NCBI RefSeq assembly: GCF_026965535.1
Contig: NZ_CP114039.1
Span: 124,001 to 188,000 of the forward strand
Direction of reading: 5' to 3'
Source: Corallococcus sp. NCRR
Lineage (GTDB): Bacteria; Myxococcota; Myxococcia; Myxococcales; Myxococcaceae
DNA: 64,000 nucleotides
Shown: in pieces, positions 46,725 through 55,457 of the stretch
How the letters are laid out: each line of letters starts with the position of its first letter
Numbering within the stretch: the stretch's first letter is position 1
Notes under the pieces: generated by a model
Databases searched by the model: none
What the model was told of the DNA's origin: nothing
The model's input: only the letters and a program-made list of their open reading frames with translations
Translations under genes and position numbers: made by a program

Positions 46725-46756
46725 GGCCTTCCGTCACGCGGGTGACGTGACGACAC

Positions 46757-46796
46757 GGCCCGGCCGGAACGCCCCCCAGGCGCATCCCGCCGGGCC
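46757..46796 (+). terminator. Hairpin after the pentapeptide gene
   Basis: GGCCCGGC (46757-46764) pairs perfectly with GCCGGGCC (46789-46796), followed by TTGTC. It lies 33 bases past the stop codon, within the 208-base gap 46725-46932. The rest of that gap should hold the promoter of the first DUF3943 gene. Confidence 0.6.
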
Positions 46797-46932
46797 TTGT
46801 CATGTCCACCGGCGCCTGTGCGCTGGAAGCCGTTTCTCCCTCCTTCCAGGAGGAGGATTTCATCCGGCGCCCCGCCCCCTACCTTCAAGGCGCGCGGCGT
46901 GGCACCGCGAGCGAGGGTGCGGCGGACGGGAT

Positions 46933-48405
46933 ATGGGGCGAGGGGGGCACGGCGGAGGCGGAGGTCCGTGGTCCCCGGGGGGCGTGCGGCTGGCCTGCGC
47001 GCTGCTGGTGGGCGCGCCCGCCTTCGCCCAGGAGGCGCCGTGCGAGGACGCTCCCGCGCCGGAGGCTCCCGCGCGGGCCGGGCCGCGGTCGCCGCCAGCG
47101 GATGCCCCGCTGAACGAGGAGACGGCCCGCGAGGGCTCGCTCCGGCAGAAGGCGCACCCGTGGCTCGCGGTGGGGGAGATCACCGCCATCAACCTGTTCG
47201 TCTGGACGTGGGACCGGGTGCTCGCGAACAAGGACTGGGCGAAGGTGAGCCCGTCCACGTGGGCGAAGAACCTGAGCACGGGCTTCGTCTGGGACGCGGA
47301 CGGCTTCCTCACCAACCAGTTCGCGCACCCGTACCACGGCAGCCTCTACTACACGGCCGCGCGCGACAACGGCGTGCCCTACGCGGCCGCCCTGGCCTTC
47401 ACGCTGTTTGGCAGCGCGCAGTGGGAGCTGTTCGCGGAGAACGAGCTGCCGTCCGCCAACGACCTCATCAACACGTCCGTGGGCGGCATGGCCATTGGCG
47501 AGGGGCTCTACCGGCTGTCCTCGCTGGTGCTGGACACGGAGGCCCGGGGCGGCGAGCGCTTCGTGCGCGAGCTCACCGCCGCCGCCATGAGCCCCGTGCG
47601 CGGCTTCAACCGCGTGGTGCGCGGCGACGTGACGCGCCACGGACCCACGCCCCCGGACTGGCGCCCCAGCGACCTGTCCATCTGGGGCAACCTGGGCTAC
47701 CTCAAGCTGGGTGACGGCCGGCCCCTGGCCTGGGGCGAGGACCAGTTCTTCCTCCACGCGGCCATGCGCTACGGCGACATGTACCAGGGCGACATCCGCC
47801 GCCCCTTCGACGCCTTCGACGCGCGCGTCCAGTTCACCTCGAAGGAGAGCAGCTTCATCAGCCATGCGCGCATCCAGGGGATGCTGCTGAAGGCGTCCCT
47901 CTGGAGCACGCAGAAGGACGAGCTGCGCTTTGGCCTGCTCCAGCAGCTCAGCGTCGTGGACACGGAAGCGTACGAGCTGGGCGGCCAGTCCGTGGAGGCG
48001 GGCCTGCTGCATGAGCGCCAGCTCGACGCGCGCTCGAAGCTGCGGACCGCGCTGCTGGTGGACGGGAGCATCCTCACCGGCATCTCCTCCGAGCACAGCG
48101 GCGTCAAGGGCCGCAACTACGACTACGGTCCCGGCCTGGGCCTGAACCTCCAGGTCGCGTACATGCGCGGCGCCTGGGAGGTCATCACACTGGAGGCGGG
48201 CACCTCCCACATCGTGGTGCTGGACGGCTCCGGCGGCTCGCACCAGGTCTTCACCGGCCAGCTCCAGGCGGACATCCCCGTGTACAAGCGCCTGGGGCTG
48301 GGCACGGAGCTGAACTGGTTCCACCGCCACAGCCGCTTCGAGTCCTACCCGGACGTGGAGAAGGACGCATACCAACTGCGCGTCTTCTTCTCCGTGCACT
48401 ACTAG
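46933..48405 (+). CDS. DUF3943 outer-membrane-type protein, first tandem copy
   Basis: The protein has 490 residues from the ATG at 46933. This choice is supported by the second copy starting at the same alignment point after a matching GGCGGAC leader. A signal peptide (VRLACALLVGAPAFAQ) follows a Gly-rich lead. DUF3943 markers are FVWDADGFLTNQFAHPYHGSLYYTAARDNG and ANDLINTSVGGMAIGE. The second half is beta-barrel-like and ends FFSVHY, an aromatic C-terminus suited to outer-membrane insertion. Function unknown. Probably surface or outer-membrane located. Confidence 0.82.
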   Translation: MGRGGHGGGGGPWSPGGVRLACALLVGAPAFAQEAPCEDAPAPEAPARAGPRSPPADAPLNEETAREGSLRQKAHPWLAVGEITAINLFVWTWDRVLANKDWAKVSPSTWAKNLSTGFVWDADGFLTNQFAHPYHGSLYYTAARDNGVPYAAALAFTLFGSAQWELFAENELPSANDLINTSVGGMAIGEGLYRLSSLVLDTEARGGERFVRELTAAAMSPVRGFNRVVRGDVTRHGPTPPDWRPSDLSIWGNLGYLKLGDGRPLAWGEDQFFLHAAMRYGDMYQGDIRRPFDAFDARVQFTSKESSFISHARIQGMLLKASLWSTQKDELRFGLLQQLSVVDTEAYELGGQSVEAGLLHERQLDARSKLRTALLVDGSILTGISSEHSGVKGRNYDYGPGLGLNLQVAYMRGAWEVITLEAGTSHIVVLDGSGGSHQVFTGQLQADIPVYKRLGLGTELNWFHRHSRFESYPDVEKDAYQLRVFFSVHY

Positions 48406-48508
48406 AAGTCACCCGAAAGGATGAGCGCCGGGGGCGCTTTCCAACACGGGACTGCTTACCTTCCGCGAGCGCGGCATGCAGCCGTGCGCGGAGGCGTGGG
48501 CGGACCGG

Positions 48509-50029
48509 ATGGGGCACGGTGGGTGGGGGCCATGGCTGCCGCGAGGCGTGGCGCTGGCGTGCGCCCTGCGCGCCGGCGCCGCGTTCGCGGATGGTTCGCC
48601 ACAGGACATGGTGCGCTCCGTTCCGTCCAACGTCATGGCCCTCTGCGCGGCGCGGCTTTCGCCCGGCCAGGAGACCCGGTGGGAGCCCTGCCCTCCCGTG
48701 GCCGAGGCGTACGCCGCATTGCCGGCGGATGCGCCCGTGAGGGAGGACGAGCTCCGGAAAAACCCCGGGCCCCACCCGTGGATCGCGGTGGGGGAGGTCA
48801 CGGCCATCAACGTGGTCGTCTGGACGTATGACCGCTACATCGCGAAGAAGGACTGGGCGTACATCTCCCCGTCCGTCTGGAAGGAGAACTTCCGCACGGG
48901 CTTCGTCTGGGACCAGGACGGCTTCTCCACCAACCAGTTCGCGCACCCGTATCACGGCGGCCTCTACTACACGGCCGCGCGCGACAACGGCCTGCCGTAT
49001 GAAGCCGCGGTGCCGCTCACCTTCCTGGGCAGCCTGCAGTGGGAGCTGTTCGCGGAGAACGAGCCGCCGTCCGCCAATGACCTCATCAACACGACCGTGG
49101 GCGGCGTGGCCATGGGCGAGGCGCTCTACCGGCTGTCCTCGCTGGTGCTGGACACGGAGGCCCGGGGCCGCCAGCGCTTCCTCCGCGAGCTGACCGCCGG
49201 CGTCATCAGCCCCGTGCGCGGCATCAACCGCGTGGTGCGCGGCGACGTCTCACACCATGGCCCGTCTCCGACGGAGTGGTGGCCGGACGACATCGCGGGC
49301 TGGGCCTCGCTGGGCTACCTCAAGCTGGGGGACGGCAGGTCCCTGGCCTGGGGCGAGGATCAGTTCTTCATCCAGGGCGCCCTGCGCTACGGCGACATGT
49401 ACCGGGGCGCGCACCACCGCCCCTTCGACTCCTTCGACGCGCGCGTCCAGTTCACCACGCGAGAGAACAGCCTCATCAGCAACGCGCGGCTGCAGGGCCT
49501 GCTCGCGAAGTCCACGCTCTGGAGCGCCGAGCGCGACGAGCTGCGCCTGGGCCTGCTCCAGCAGCTCGACTACACGGACACGCTCGCCTACGAGGTGGGC
49601 GGCCAGTCCCTGGACGTGGGCCTGCTGCACGAGCACCGCTTCCTCAACCGCTCCCGGCTGAGGACCGCGCTGCTCGTGGACGGCAGCCTCCTCACCGGCG
49701 TCACCTCCGAGCACACCGACAGCGAGGGCAACGAGGGCCGCGACTACGACTACGGCCCCGGCCTGGGCTTCCAGTTCCACATGGCGTACCTGCGCGAGGA
49801 CTGGGAGATCCTCACGCTGGAGGCGGGCGCCGAGCACGTGGTGGTGGTGGACGGCTCGGGCGGCGCGCACCGGGTGCACCAGGCCCAGCTGCAGGTGGAC
49901 CTCCCCGTGTACAAGCACCTGGGGATGGGCGGGCAGCTGAACTTCTTCCGGCGCCACAGCCGCTTCGATTCCTTCCCGGCCGTGACGAAGGACACCTGGC
50001 AGCTGCGCATCTTCGTCTCCCTGCACTGA
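48509..50029 (+). CDS. DUF3943 outer-membrane-type protein, second tandem copy
   Basis: The protein has 506 residues and is collinear with the preceding gene from signal peptide (VALACALRAGAAFA) to C-terminal FVSLH. It shares FVWDQDGFSTNQFAHPYHGGLYYTAARDNG and NDLINTTVGGVAMGE. Most differences are in the N-terminal 100 residues and in barrel loops (an extra DSEGNEGR loop here). Both genes have a similar leader (ACCTTC...GCGGAC) just upstream, so the duplication probably included the promoter. This is a recent or conserved tandem duplication in an otherwise unknown family. Confidence 0.82.
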   Translation: MGHGGWGPWLPRGVALACALRAGAAFADGSPQDMVRSVPSNVMALCAARLSPGQETRWEPCPPVAEAYAALPADAPVREDELRKNPGPHPWIAVGEVTAINVVVWTYDRYIAKKDWAYISPSVWKENFRTGFVWDQDGFSTNQFAHPYHGGLYYTAARDNGLPYEAAVPLTFLGSLQWELFAENEPPSANDLINTTVGGVAMGEALYRLSSLVLDTEARGRQRFLRELTAGVISPVRGINRVVRGDVSHHGPSPTEWWPDDIAGWASLGYLKLGDGRSLAWGEDQFFIQGALRYGDMYRGAHHRPFDSFDARVQFTTRENSLISNARLQGLLAKSTLWSAERDELRLGLLQQLDYTDTLAYEVGGQSLDVGLLHEHRFLNRSRLRTALLVDGSLLTGVTSEHTDSEGNEGRDYDYGPGLGFQFHMAYLREDWEILTLEAGAEHVVVVDGSGGAHRVHQAQLQVDLPVYKHLGMGGQLNFFRRHSRFDSFPAVTKDTWQLRIFVSLH

Positions 50030-51726: not shown

Positions 51727-52650
51727 TCAGGCGGCGGGCGTGCGGCCCCGTGCCCGCCATCCGTCCCACACCACCGTGCCCAGCTCCGACGCGAAGACGC
51801 CTACGACAATGAGCGCGCCGCCCAGCCACTCCTTCGGCCCCAGCACCTCGCGGCCCACCGCCACGGAGTAGGCCGAGGCGAACACCGGCTCCAGCGCGAA
51901 GATGAGCGCCGCGCGCACCGCGCTGGTGCGCGCCTGTCCCCAGGTCTGCACCAGGATGGCCACCGCGCTCGCGAGCACGCCGCACGCGAGCACCGCCACC
52001 ACCAGCGGCTGGCTCCACACCAGCTTGCGCTCCACGAAGGGCAGGCACAGCGCGGACAGCACCGCCACGCCAATGAGCTGCACCGCCACCAGGCCCACGG
52101 CGTTGTCCTTCGACGCGAAGCGCTCCGTGAGCAGGATGTGCCCCGCGTACGCCAGCGCGCACCCGATGGACAGCCAGTCCCCCAGGCGGAAGCCCCCCAC
52201 GCCCCCGGCCATCGCGTCGTTCGGGGTGGGCCGCGTCAGCCAGTACAGCCCCACCGCCGCCAGCACCACGCCCACGGCGGTGCCCCACCGGGGCAGGCGC
52301 CGGAGCAGCACCATGGACAGCAGCGGGACGAAGAGGACGTTCAAGCCGGTGAGGAACGCCGCGCGCGACGGCGTGGTGTCCGTCAGGCCCACGGTCTGGA
52401 GCGCGAAGCACAGGAACAGCACCCCCGCCAGCAGCAGCCCCTTGGGGACGATGCCGGGCGCGAACATCCGCCTCCGCGCGATGACGGCCAGCACCGCCGC
52501 GCCCACGATGAAGCGCAGGGTGAGGAAGGTGAACGGATCCGCGAACGCGAGCGCGTCCTTCACCACCACGAACGTCAGTCCCCAGAAGACGGTGAGGAGC
52601 ACCAGCGCCCCGTCCGCCTTCCACTGCGCACCCTCACGCCCTTCAGACAC
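51727..52650 (-). CDS. EamA/DMT family transporter
   Basis: It has about 307 residues from a GTG at 52650 (AAGGG at reasonable spacing); an upstream frame to 52731 is open but lacks support. There are ten hydrophobic segments in two EamA repeats (LVLLTVFWGLTFVVVKDAL and WLSIGCALAYAGHILLTERF). R/T-P-S-x-A-A-F-L-T-G-L-N in the first repeat and ALEPVFASAYSV in the second are typical. It would export a small metabolite or amino acid; substrate unknown. Confidence 0.85.
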   Translation of the reverse strand: MSEGREGAQWKADGALVLLTVFWGLTFVVVKDALAFADPFTFLTLRFIVGAAVLAVIARRRMFAPGIVPKGLLLAGVLFLCFALQTVGLTDTTPSRAAFLTGLNVLFVPLLSMVLLRRLPRWGTAVGVVLAAVGLYWLTRPTPNDAMAGGVGGFRLGDWLSIGCALAYAGHILLTERFASKDNAVGLVAVQLIGVAVLSALCLPFVERKLVWSQPLVVAVLACGVLASAVAILVQTWGQARTSAVRAALIFALEPVFASAYSVAVGREVLGPKEWLGGALIVVGVFASELGTVVWDGWRARGRTPAA

Positions 52651-52737
52651 CGGATCCACCCTTCCCTGCCCACGGCACGAAGCAGGACGCCCTGCCGTTT
52701 GGCCCAGCCACCGGAAGAGCGCAACCCCCATCCGGTG

Positions 52738-53715
52738 TCAGGAGGGAAGCCGGCGCACCAGCACGACCAGTCGCTTGCTCCCCCCGGCCGCGTCCCACTG
52801 CTGGTTCGTGGCGACGGTCAGCGCGTCCGGCGCGGGATGGAACCCCAGGCCGGAGAAGGTCCGCAGGGACGCGGTGTTGTCCTCGTCGATGTCCGCGTGG
52901 AGCCGGTCCGCGCCCTGCCGGTGGATCTCCTCCACCAGGCACCGCACCAGCGCGGTGGCCACGCCCATGCGCCGCACCCTGGGGGACACCACCAGCGAGC
53001 GCACCCAGAAGCCATCCAGGGACAGCCCCTCCTGGTGGTAGTCGTCCGCCCAGGCGAAGCCGAGCAGGTGCCCCTGCGCGTCGAACGCGCCCGCCGCCGC
53101 GCCCACGCGCCGGTCCGCGGGCAGGCCCCAGCGGTCACGCAGCTGCCGGCGCAAGAACGTCCCGGACACCACCAGCCGCTCCGTGGCGAAGGCGAGCAGC
53201 GCGTCCAGGTCATCCGGGCGCACCAGCCGGATTTCGAGCGGACCCACGAACTGGCGGCGCAGCGGCTTCGTCCACCCAGAGAACAGGTCGCGCAGGTGGC
53301 GGAACACCGCGCGGGAACCGGGCTTCGTCCACACGCCGGACAGGGTGCGCTGCAACAGGAACAGCGCCGGCCGCGTGGGCCGGGGCAGCCGCATCACCCA
53401 CCGCCCGCGCTTGAGCGCGATGATGCGCCCCACCAGCTCCCCGCCCGCCACGTCCGTGCCGCCCAGCAGCGACTCCGTCACCCAGGGCTGTGTGGACAGC
53501 ACCACCTGCGCGGCCAGCCGGGGCCCGTGCCGCACCAGCGCCACGTCCCCGCGCGCCAGCCGCTCCGGCCCGCAGCGCAACAGCCGCACCGCGTCCCCGC
53601 TGCGCAGGAGCGGATAGAGACACCGCCCCATGCCGCGCACCCACAGCCGGTGGCCGAAGGGCAGCGCCGCAAGCAGGTCCGCGAGCTCGGCCGTCGAGAC
53701 GCCACCAGAGGGCAT
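52738..53715 (-). CDS. S24/S26 peptidase-like domain fused to GNAT acetyltransferase
   Basis: The protein has 325 residues from the ATG at 53715. Residues about 20-125 resemble the S24/S26 signal-peptidase/LexA fold: VRGMGRCLYPLLRSGDAVRLLRC and LARGDVALVRHG. The usual G-x-S-M serine is replaced (GRCLYP), and a Lys in ELVGRIIALKRGR may match the base. Residues about 165-320 form a GNAT domain, with the acetyl-CoA loop in RSLVVSPRVRRMGVATALV and the C-terminal ENTASLRTFSGLGF. The fusion is unusual. The acceptor is unknown. It is divergent from the Coa1-like gene. Confidence 0.75.
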   Translation of the reverse strand: MPSGGVSTAELADLLAALPFGHRLWVRGMGRCLYPLLRSGDAVRLLRCGPERLARGDVALVRHGPRLAAQVVLSTQPWVTESLLGGTDVAGGELVGRIIALKRGRWVMRLPRPTRPALFLLQRTLSGVWTKPGSRAVFRHLRDLFSGWTKPLRRQFVGPLEIRLVRPDDLDALLAFATERLVVSGTFLRRQLRDRWGLPADRRVGAAAGAFDAQGHLLGFAWADDYHQEGLSLDGFWVRSLVVSPRVRRMGVATALVRCLVEEIHRQGADRLHADIDEDNTASLRTFSGLGFHPAPDALTVATNQQWDAAGGSKRLVVLVRRLPS

Positions 53716-53828
53716 GACACCCACTCTGTCATGAAGGCGCCCCCGAAACCCGCCCCCGGTGCAGGCCCCACCCCGCTTCGTCCGGAACCGGGTATGACAC
53801 GGCCCCAGGTCCAGGCCAGGAGGGCCCC

Positions 53829-54392
53829 ATGCCGCCGACAATGCCCGAGGGTGACTACGCACCCGTGCCCCGCCAGGGATGGTGGAACCGCAACTGGAAG
53901 TGGGCGGTGCCCCTGGGCTGCCTGGGGATGCTGGGCTCGTGCTTCTGCTTCGCGGCCATCGCCGTGGGCTGGGGCTACTCGTCGTTCAAGGACATGGGCG
54001 CGTACACGGACGCCATCGCGGAGGCCCAGGAGGATCCGCACGTGCAGCAGGCCCTGGGCGGCAGCTTCAAGCCGGGCTTCCCCAGCAACACCCAGGTGAG
54101 CACCCGCAACGGCCGCACCCACGCGGAGTTCACCGTCCCGCTGGACGGCCCCAAGGCGGACGGCGACCTCCACGCCGTGGCGGACAAGCAGGGCGAGTCG
54201 TGGACCTTCAGCTCCCTCTACGTCCAGGTGGACGACGGACAGCGCATCGACCTGCTCGACACGGGCGAGGCTCCGGAGCCGGGGGAGCTGGACGAGCCGG
54301 AGGTGCCCCACGAGCTGGAGCCGGACGACGCCGAGCCCCCGGAGCCGCCCGCGCGGAAGAAGCCCGGCGGCGACACCGACATCGAGCTGTAG
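53829..54392 (+). CDS. Coa1-like/single-span membrane protein
   Basis: The protein has 187 residues. A membrane segment ([26 protein letters not shown]) is followed by a globular domain (about 50-145). Its [45 protein letters not shown] resembles Coa1 (cytochrome oxidase assembly factor) family proteins. The last 45 residues are Glu/Pro-rich and acidic. No oxidase genes are nearby. The Coa1 label is structural and does not prove a role in respiration. Confidence 0.68.

Positions 54393-54491: not shown

Positions 54492-55457
<966 letters not shown>

Follow-up and report, generated by a model that had tools for sequence, protein, structure and literature searches.

The window analysed here, a 64-kb stretch of the Corallococcus sp. 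NCRR genome, contains a fusion gene, T (positions 52738–53715, minus strand, ATG start at 53715), whose 325-residue product joins an S24/S26-like (LppS-like) domain to a GNAT acetyltransferase. We consider T probably to be the orphaned leader peptidase of a RiPP pathway resembling the linear polyphosphorylated peptide (LPP) system, turned pseudoenzyme and fused to a GNAT whose former role may have been to cap the peptide after cleavage. Judged by its residues, only the acetyltransferase of the window protein is expected to be catalytic.

The S24/S26-like leader-peptidase domain spans residues 12–105 (53401–53682) by alignment to relatives carrying Ser, His and Asp at the catalytic positions; this part of the protein reads GRCLYPLLRSGD, with the GNAT C-terminal to it. 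Residues 30–43, translated from the minus-strand ORF, are GRCLYPLLRSGDAV. In place of an active Ser with a His or Lys base, the window protein has Cys32 at the nucleophile position (codon 53620–53622) and Gln70 at the general-base position (codon 53506–53508); all 24 relatives adjacent to the gene cluster described below have Ser and His there. Asp88 (codon 53452–53454) retains the presumed third catalytic residue, the least certain of the three assignments: a profile alignment with the second type of S24 protein described below pairs the Asp with that of MEDPP and not with that of RGDN. The acetyltransferase domain covers residues 160–300 (52816–53238). PF00583 matched residues 212–292 with an E-value of 2.5e-11, and the motif RRMGVA at residues 248–253 (52957–52974), aligned with relatives, is one that we take to be the acetyl-CoA-binding hallmark of GNATs.

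In 24 genomes T adjoins an HprK-like kinase gene, which was recovered at all 24 loci both by a one-sequence search and by an HprK profile whose seeds include nine of these genomes. The same profile matched beside T at none of the 41 loci termed module-less and at none of the 14 stand-alone loci. Fifteen loci with wider flanks share the order PqqD, very large Ig/FG-GAP protein, short peptide, HprK and T, the block beside T being termed module A; the exception is genome G087 (L056/L092), where the kinase is found on the far side of T. The discrete RRE is a PqqD protein (PF05402, 3.1e-13 in L082), and the PqqD profile matched all 15 extended loci, eight of them profile seeds, the other nine of the 24 being too short upstream. 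The large protein has called lengths of 1,760–2,342 aa (12 loci); in L082 it carries FG-GAP (1.1e-25) and Big domains according to Pfam, and its N-terminus reads by eye as that of a lipoprotein. The kinase is nearest to NCBIfam HprK_rel_B (2.4e-6) and HprK_rel_A (8.4e-6), both matches falling below the curated cut-off.

The short peptide is characterised by a [Y/W]xxP motif. One loose pattern at one position identified it at 23 of the 24 module loci, and the remaining locus has its peptide just before T. At the module position this pattern matched none of the 40 module-less loci whose upstream sequence reaches 1 kb or more and one of the 14 stand-alone loci, and anywhere upstream it matched seven of the 40, none at the module position; these control figures use the loose pattern, a stricter one missing three of the 24 module loci. 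The 18 distinct peptides tabulated have 36–58 aa, with start codons assigned by rule and longer starts possible. Their leader approximates K-Y-x-x-P-x-V-R-S-E-x-I-L-V-P-D-L-F and is followed by a variable, Cys-containing end. Motif position 1 is Tyr in 17 peptides and Trp in one (the W-type peptide of L041 is not among the 18), and position 4 is Pro in all of them. Each also has Ser or Thr at position 8 from the motif Tyr, within the presumed leader, a possible site of phosphorylation or of contact with the RRE.

The window retains the surroundings of this block. Upstream of T lie the two flank markers, a Coa1-domain protein (53829–54392, plus strand; PF08695, 6.6e-11) and the electron transfer flavoprotein alpha gene, EtfA (54492–55457, minus strand; PF01012 and PF00766), and by synteny the 113-bp gap between T and Coa1 (53716–53828) is the site of module A (PqqD, Ig/FG-GAP protein, [Y/W]xxP peptide and HprK) in relatives. 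HprK and PqqD had no matches in the 64-kb window, so T has no set of precursor, RRE and kinase beside it there, and a search of its own genome for the large protein of module A, run without a positive control, gave no match. EtfA and Coa1 lie immediately upstream of T at 40 of the 41 module-less loci, the exception (L005) having 35 bases of flank and being counted as module-less on a whole-genome HprK search. Among the 15 extended module loci, both markers lie upstream of the block at nine, EtfA alone at two and neither at four. Elsewhere in the window, 46747–48405 and 48476–50029 encode tandem DUF3943 proteins that are 62% identical.

Residues at the catalytic positions were counted over 79 T loci: 24 module-adjacent, 14 stand-alone, 26 module-less in genus g19, which may be Myxococcus, and 15 in the window's genus. 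Left out were L106 (its T truncated by the end of the contig, with Ser-Gln), the GNAT-only loci L107 and L108, repeats of species already counted as judged by position and identity (L031–L040), and two divergent second copies in genus g5. These g5 copies (L047:5763-6758(-) and L048:5470-6465(+)) are fusions with Pro and Tyr at the Ser and His sites, and the GNAT of L047 matched at 3.5e-6. Ser-His-Asp is present at all 24 module-adjacent loci and all 14 stand-alone loci, and at 10 of the 26 in g19, but the window's genus, with 15 loci, has it nowhere; over all 41 module-less loci it is kept at 10. The other g19 loci show mixtures of Gly, Asp and Cys at the first position, His, Gln and Arg at the second, and Asp, Glu, Ala and Gln at the third, and the window's genus shows Cys-Gln-Asp (10 loci), Cys-Gln-Pro (one) and Ser-Gln-x (four), so that the Ser position in module-less loci holds S, C, D or G. 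These counts amount to a natural experiment: next to the precursor cluster the peptidase residues do not vary, where the cluster is gone they do, and the active site is thereby tied to the peptide in living genomes. A further role for the triad is possible, because 10 module-less loci keep it, as do the 14 stand-alone T, which had neither HprK nor PqqD matches beside them. HprK neighbourhoods elsewhere in the stand-alone-T genomes (L110–L119, 10 loci) contained no PqqD or S24 match and no convincing peptide. The stand-alone proteins (L050–L053, L057–L059, L061–L063 and L065–L068) have about 136–145 aa, L068 being cut at a contig end.

On the tree of T, module presence changed at least three times and the triad at least five times, and all rows with a broken triad are module-less. 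The module-less clades account for 11% of the branch length, and five triad events would all fall within them by chance with a probability of about 2e-5, a post hoc figure that assumes equal rates; an independent-pairs test of module against triad has only two to three pairs and cannot reach significance. The apparent link between loss of the module and change of the triad rests on few independent events. Module A was presumably lost rather than gained, because its occurrences are scattered over many genera and include g5 and a single g19 genome. That His was lost before Ser in the window's genus is no more than the simplest reading, since L012, with Ser-Gln, sits among the Cys rows on the tree.

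The GNAT half follows the opposite pattern. It is kept where the module is gone (L080, for example, matched PF00583 at 7.2e-12), and the acetyl-CoA motif at the module-less loci is RRMGVA in 38, RLMGLA in two and RRMKVA in one of the 41. Some module loci keep the domain (L041, 1.3e-6; L042, 0.0025; L082, 2.1e-11). L044 and L046 matched PF00583 weakly at about 0.06, L046 also matching Acetyltransf_7 at 0.006. Four module loci that keep Ser-His-Asp (L045, L054, L055 and L060) had no GNAT match at 0.1, and L049 and L064 have no GNAT domain as judged by length. Peptidase residues change where the module is gone and the GNAT is weak or absent at several module loci; each half can therefore fail separately.

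Homology, gene order, residue states and the selection pattern are read here directly from the sequences, and from them we infer what the enzymatic steps are and in which order events occurred. Where relatives carry the module, the PqqD/RRE protein would present the [Y/W]xxP precursor, the HprK-like kinase would phosphorylate it, the Ser-His-Asp domain of T would remove the leader and the GNAT of T, where intact, would acetylate the new N-terminus (“cut and cap”). A cut-and-cap enzyme would be the simplest interpretation of the fused chain because LppS cuts the LPP leader (PMC13381572) and the microviridin GNAT MvdB acetylates a RiPP N-terminus freed by leader removal (PMC13039773). The genes between Coa1 and T would have been lost in the window's genus, leaving T and EamA, and the peptidase His would have become Gln in all 15 species examined and the Ser would have become Cys in 11. 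The remainder would be an acetyltransferase with a pseudopeptidase domain under purifying selection, probably because that domain serves in docking or has a structural role.

Selection on the two halves bears on this last step. In the window's genus dN/dS is 0.10 for the N-domain versus 0.29 for the GNAT, and amino-acid change affects four of the 27 variable codons among residues 2–75 (sites 3, 20, 32 and 75) versus 40 of 96 among residues 160–320 (Fisher p 0.012, with the boundary set post hoc). The corresponding dN/dS values are 0.43 versus 0.27 in module-less g19 and 0.25 versus 0.32 in module-bearing g7+g8. In the window's genus the tightest constraint on the protein thus falls on the N-domain, which argues against simple decay there, and the altered domain is probably retained for binding or folding.

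The alternative that survives best goes one step further and assigns the N-domain a definite new function as a repurposed, non-catalytic binding domain, for example in docking the peptide or the PqqD protein of a second module for acetylation. We regard this as plausible, if short of probable. The strong purifying selection on the domain in the window's genus, unlike that in module-less g19, argues for it, as does the presence in the same genome of a second, apparently intact LPP-like module at 6.769–6.7745 Mb (L094:5154-10594). That locus encodes an S24 protein (PF00717, 3.2e-8) with the motifs GDSMWP, LVLHRV and RGDN, a PqqD protein (5.7e-15), a YxxP peptide and an HprK-like kinase, together with a PQQ-type beta-propeller protein (PQQ_2, 1.6e-12) and a protein with sub-threshold Ig-like matches. 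The three motifs are intact in each of the nine second-type S24 proteins examined, and 11 of 12 second-type peptides, near-copies included, have Ser at position 19 from the motif Tyr or Trp. However, no direct link joins T to the second module, which lies about 6.6 Mb away in contig coordinates. The same genome has another PqqD-like gene at about 1.451 Mb (L180:7025-7303(-)), with no HprK or S24 match in the 15 kb around it.

It is also conceivable, though we think it rather doubtful, that the GNAT and its neighbour EamA acetylate and export a small metabolite, that the GNAT never acted on the peptide and that the peptidase domain is a passenger. The EamA transporter gene of the window (51727–52731, minus strand; PF00892, 1.6e-34) begins 6 bp after T, and EamA is found downstream of T at 40 of the 41 module-less loci (at nine of them about 1.3 kb off; L010, the one locus without it, lies at the end of its contig). 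The retention of an intact GNAT where the module is gone, and its weakness or absence at several module loci, fit this reading as well. However, the pairing of EamA with T does not track the GNAT, because EamA also follows T proteins that have no GNAT, as at L049.

We also considered that Cys32, paired with a different residue, might act as the nucleophile of a cysteine peptidase coupled to acetyl transfer. The preliminary description had recognised the altered Ser position correctly and had left open whether it marked a swap to Cys or a loss of catalysis; of these, loss is the better half. Cys occupies the position at 11 of the 15 loci of the window's genus, within a domain that is otherwise nearly invariant, and at two g19 loci. 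Such a Cys would nevertheless lack a His partner, because the general base is Gln at all 15 loci of the window's genus. Four of these loci have Ser with Gln, four have a changed third residue, and at other module-less loci the place of the Cys is taken by Asp or Gly. The proposed Cys-Lys dyad fares no better, the partner position being His in relatives and Gln70 here. We have rejected the Cys nucleophile as the leading reading on account of the Gln partner and the Asp and Gly at this site elsewhere, and consider it very improbable.

The assignment of the N-domain itself depends on relatives, since the window protein gave no direct S24/S26 match for this domain in Pfam, NCBIfam or PDB searches. 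In an alignment of 12 N-domains (A3), 10 matched PF00717 (Peptidase_S24), the best at 1.8e-5 and with E-values up to 1. Compared with a set of nine second-type S24 proteins, A3 gave an hhalign probability of 98% (E 3e-13), and the profile of those nine proteins matched LexA (9.2e-4) and SEC11A (1.5e-3) in the PDB. A PDB search with the T-domain profile alone gave nothing convincing, signal peptidase I (4nv4) appearing at an E-value of 1.6 behind unrelated proteins, and AlphaFold2, given nine near-identical sequences, returned a pLDDT of 41.3 for the full protein and 34.8 for the N-domain, too low for a usable model. The putative S24/S26 fold of the window protein's N-domain is supported by the two-step sequence chain from A3 through the S24 set to LexA and SEC11A. 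That the protein is a plain GNAT whose N-terminal likeness to S24/S26 is accidental, as the missing direct Pfam and NCBIfam matches might suggest, is scarcely credible given this chain and the Ser, His and Asp pattern of the relatives.

Protein searches for T found matches in 83 of 96 genomes of the family, three of them GNAT-only, leaving the gene in 80, and A3 retrieves T at up to 1.5e-55; because of this distribution and these scores, the observation is not a matter of chance. Matches to A3 turned up in 82 of the 145 genomes searched in the order and in 93 of the 195 in the phylum, 11 of these 93 lying outside the family; both counts include weaker matches to the second type of S24 protein. 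The fusion that the preliminary description proposed is borne out, as is its suggested link to a peptide product, the relatives adjoining a precursor-peptide cluster. Its concern that the two halves might be separate genes in all relatives is answered by a fusion that is conserved in the family yet not universal, with peptidase-only proteins at the 14 stand-alone loci and at two module-adjacent ones.

LPP-like sets (S24 with HprK, some with PqqD and YxxP-type peptides) also occur at L163–L175, spread over 11 genomes that belong to the phylum but not to the family. Over 15 S24 loci, namely these 13 and two weaker ones within the family, all have HprK or PqqD in their flanks and six have PqqD, compared with none of 20 control loci (14 stand-alone T, the window, two paralogue loci and three module-less Corallococcus loci). 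Some of these matches are weak, that of HprK in L169 (5e-5) for example, and the S24 match of L172 was not recovered by the second profile. YxxP-type peptides, picked by eye without a control, are present at about 10 of the 15. With four of the six LPP core genes in a phylum other than Bacillota, together with a leader peptidase-acetyltransferase fusion, the module A loci point to a little-known modified-peptide family outside the bacteria in which it was described, and two-step maturation in one chain becomes testable. A bolder proposal, which we put forward only tentatively, is that LPP-like phosphorylated peptides form a broad family of their own in Myxococcota, with a single-chain cut-and-cap maturase evolved in one branch, and that the window's genus kept this chain after losing the pathway, its dead site now serving as a conserved peptide-docking domain.

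Several known systems share parts of this arrangement. SipW and the archaeal and ER-type (SEC11) signal peptidases have the GxSMxP...GD...H...D layout common to the relatives of T. These signal peptidases belong to MEROPS class S26B. Unlike them, T has no signal-peptidase context, and in the window protein the Ser and His are replaced. MvdB differs from T in being a separate enzyme encoded in the cluster of a different RiPP class. Paeninodin-type phosphorylated lasso peptides share with module A an HprK-like kinase, a PqqD-like RRE and a [Y/W]xxP-type leader (PMC13381572); they also have a lasso cyclase and a B2 cysteine peptidase, neither of which is among the L082 gene calls between Coa1 and T. 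Among the literature matches listed, titles and abstract openings described neither LPP-like modules in Myxococcota nor a leader peptidase-GNAT fusion, subscription papers being mostly uncovered.

The closest comparison is with the LPP system itself, published in 2026 and stated there to be restricted to Bacillota (PMC13381572). In its pathway an RRE presents the leader, a kinase phosphorylates core Ser3 and LppS cuts, S29, H68 and D93 each being needed for cleavage in addition to the RRE (PMC13381572). Module A resembles it in having an SpI-type Ser-His-Asp leader peptidase, a discrete RRE (PqqD), an HprK-like kinase and a [Y/W]xxP-leader precursor with a variable end (PMC13381572), and likewise in having no cyclase gene among the L082 calls between Coa1 and T. 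It is unlike LPP in its occurrence in Myxococcota, the fusion of the peptidase to a GNAT, the Ig/FG-GAP protein and the Cys-containing cores; its leader also differs from the LPP consensus YxxPxVLxHQxIxFETxxS (PMC13381572). The window locus departs further, with its triad broken and its module absent. We name module A LPP-like, not a member of LPP, because four of the six LPP core genes are matched and two, the NTP transferase and the MsbA-like exporter, are missing from the module gene calls, those of L082 leaving no room for them between Coa1 and T. In the LPP consensus the phosphorylated Ser lies at the same distance as S19 of the second-type peptides (PMC13381572). Of the modules found here, the second comes closest to LPP, its peptide spacing fitting the LPP motif better than that of the module A peptide.
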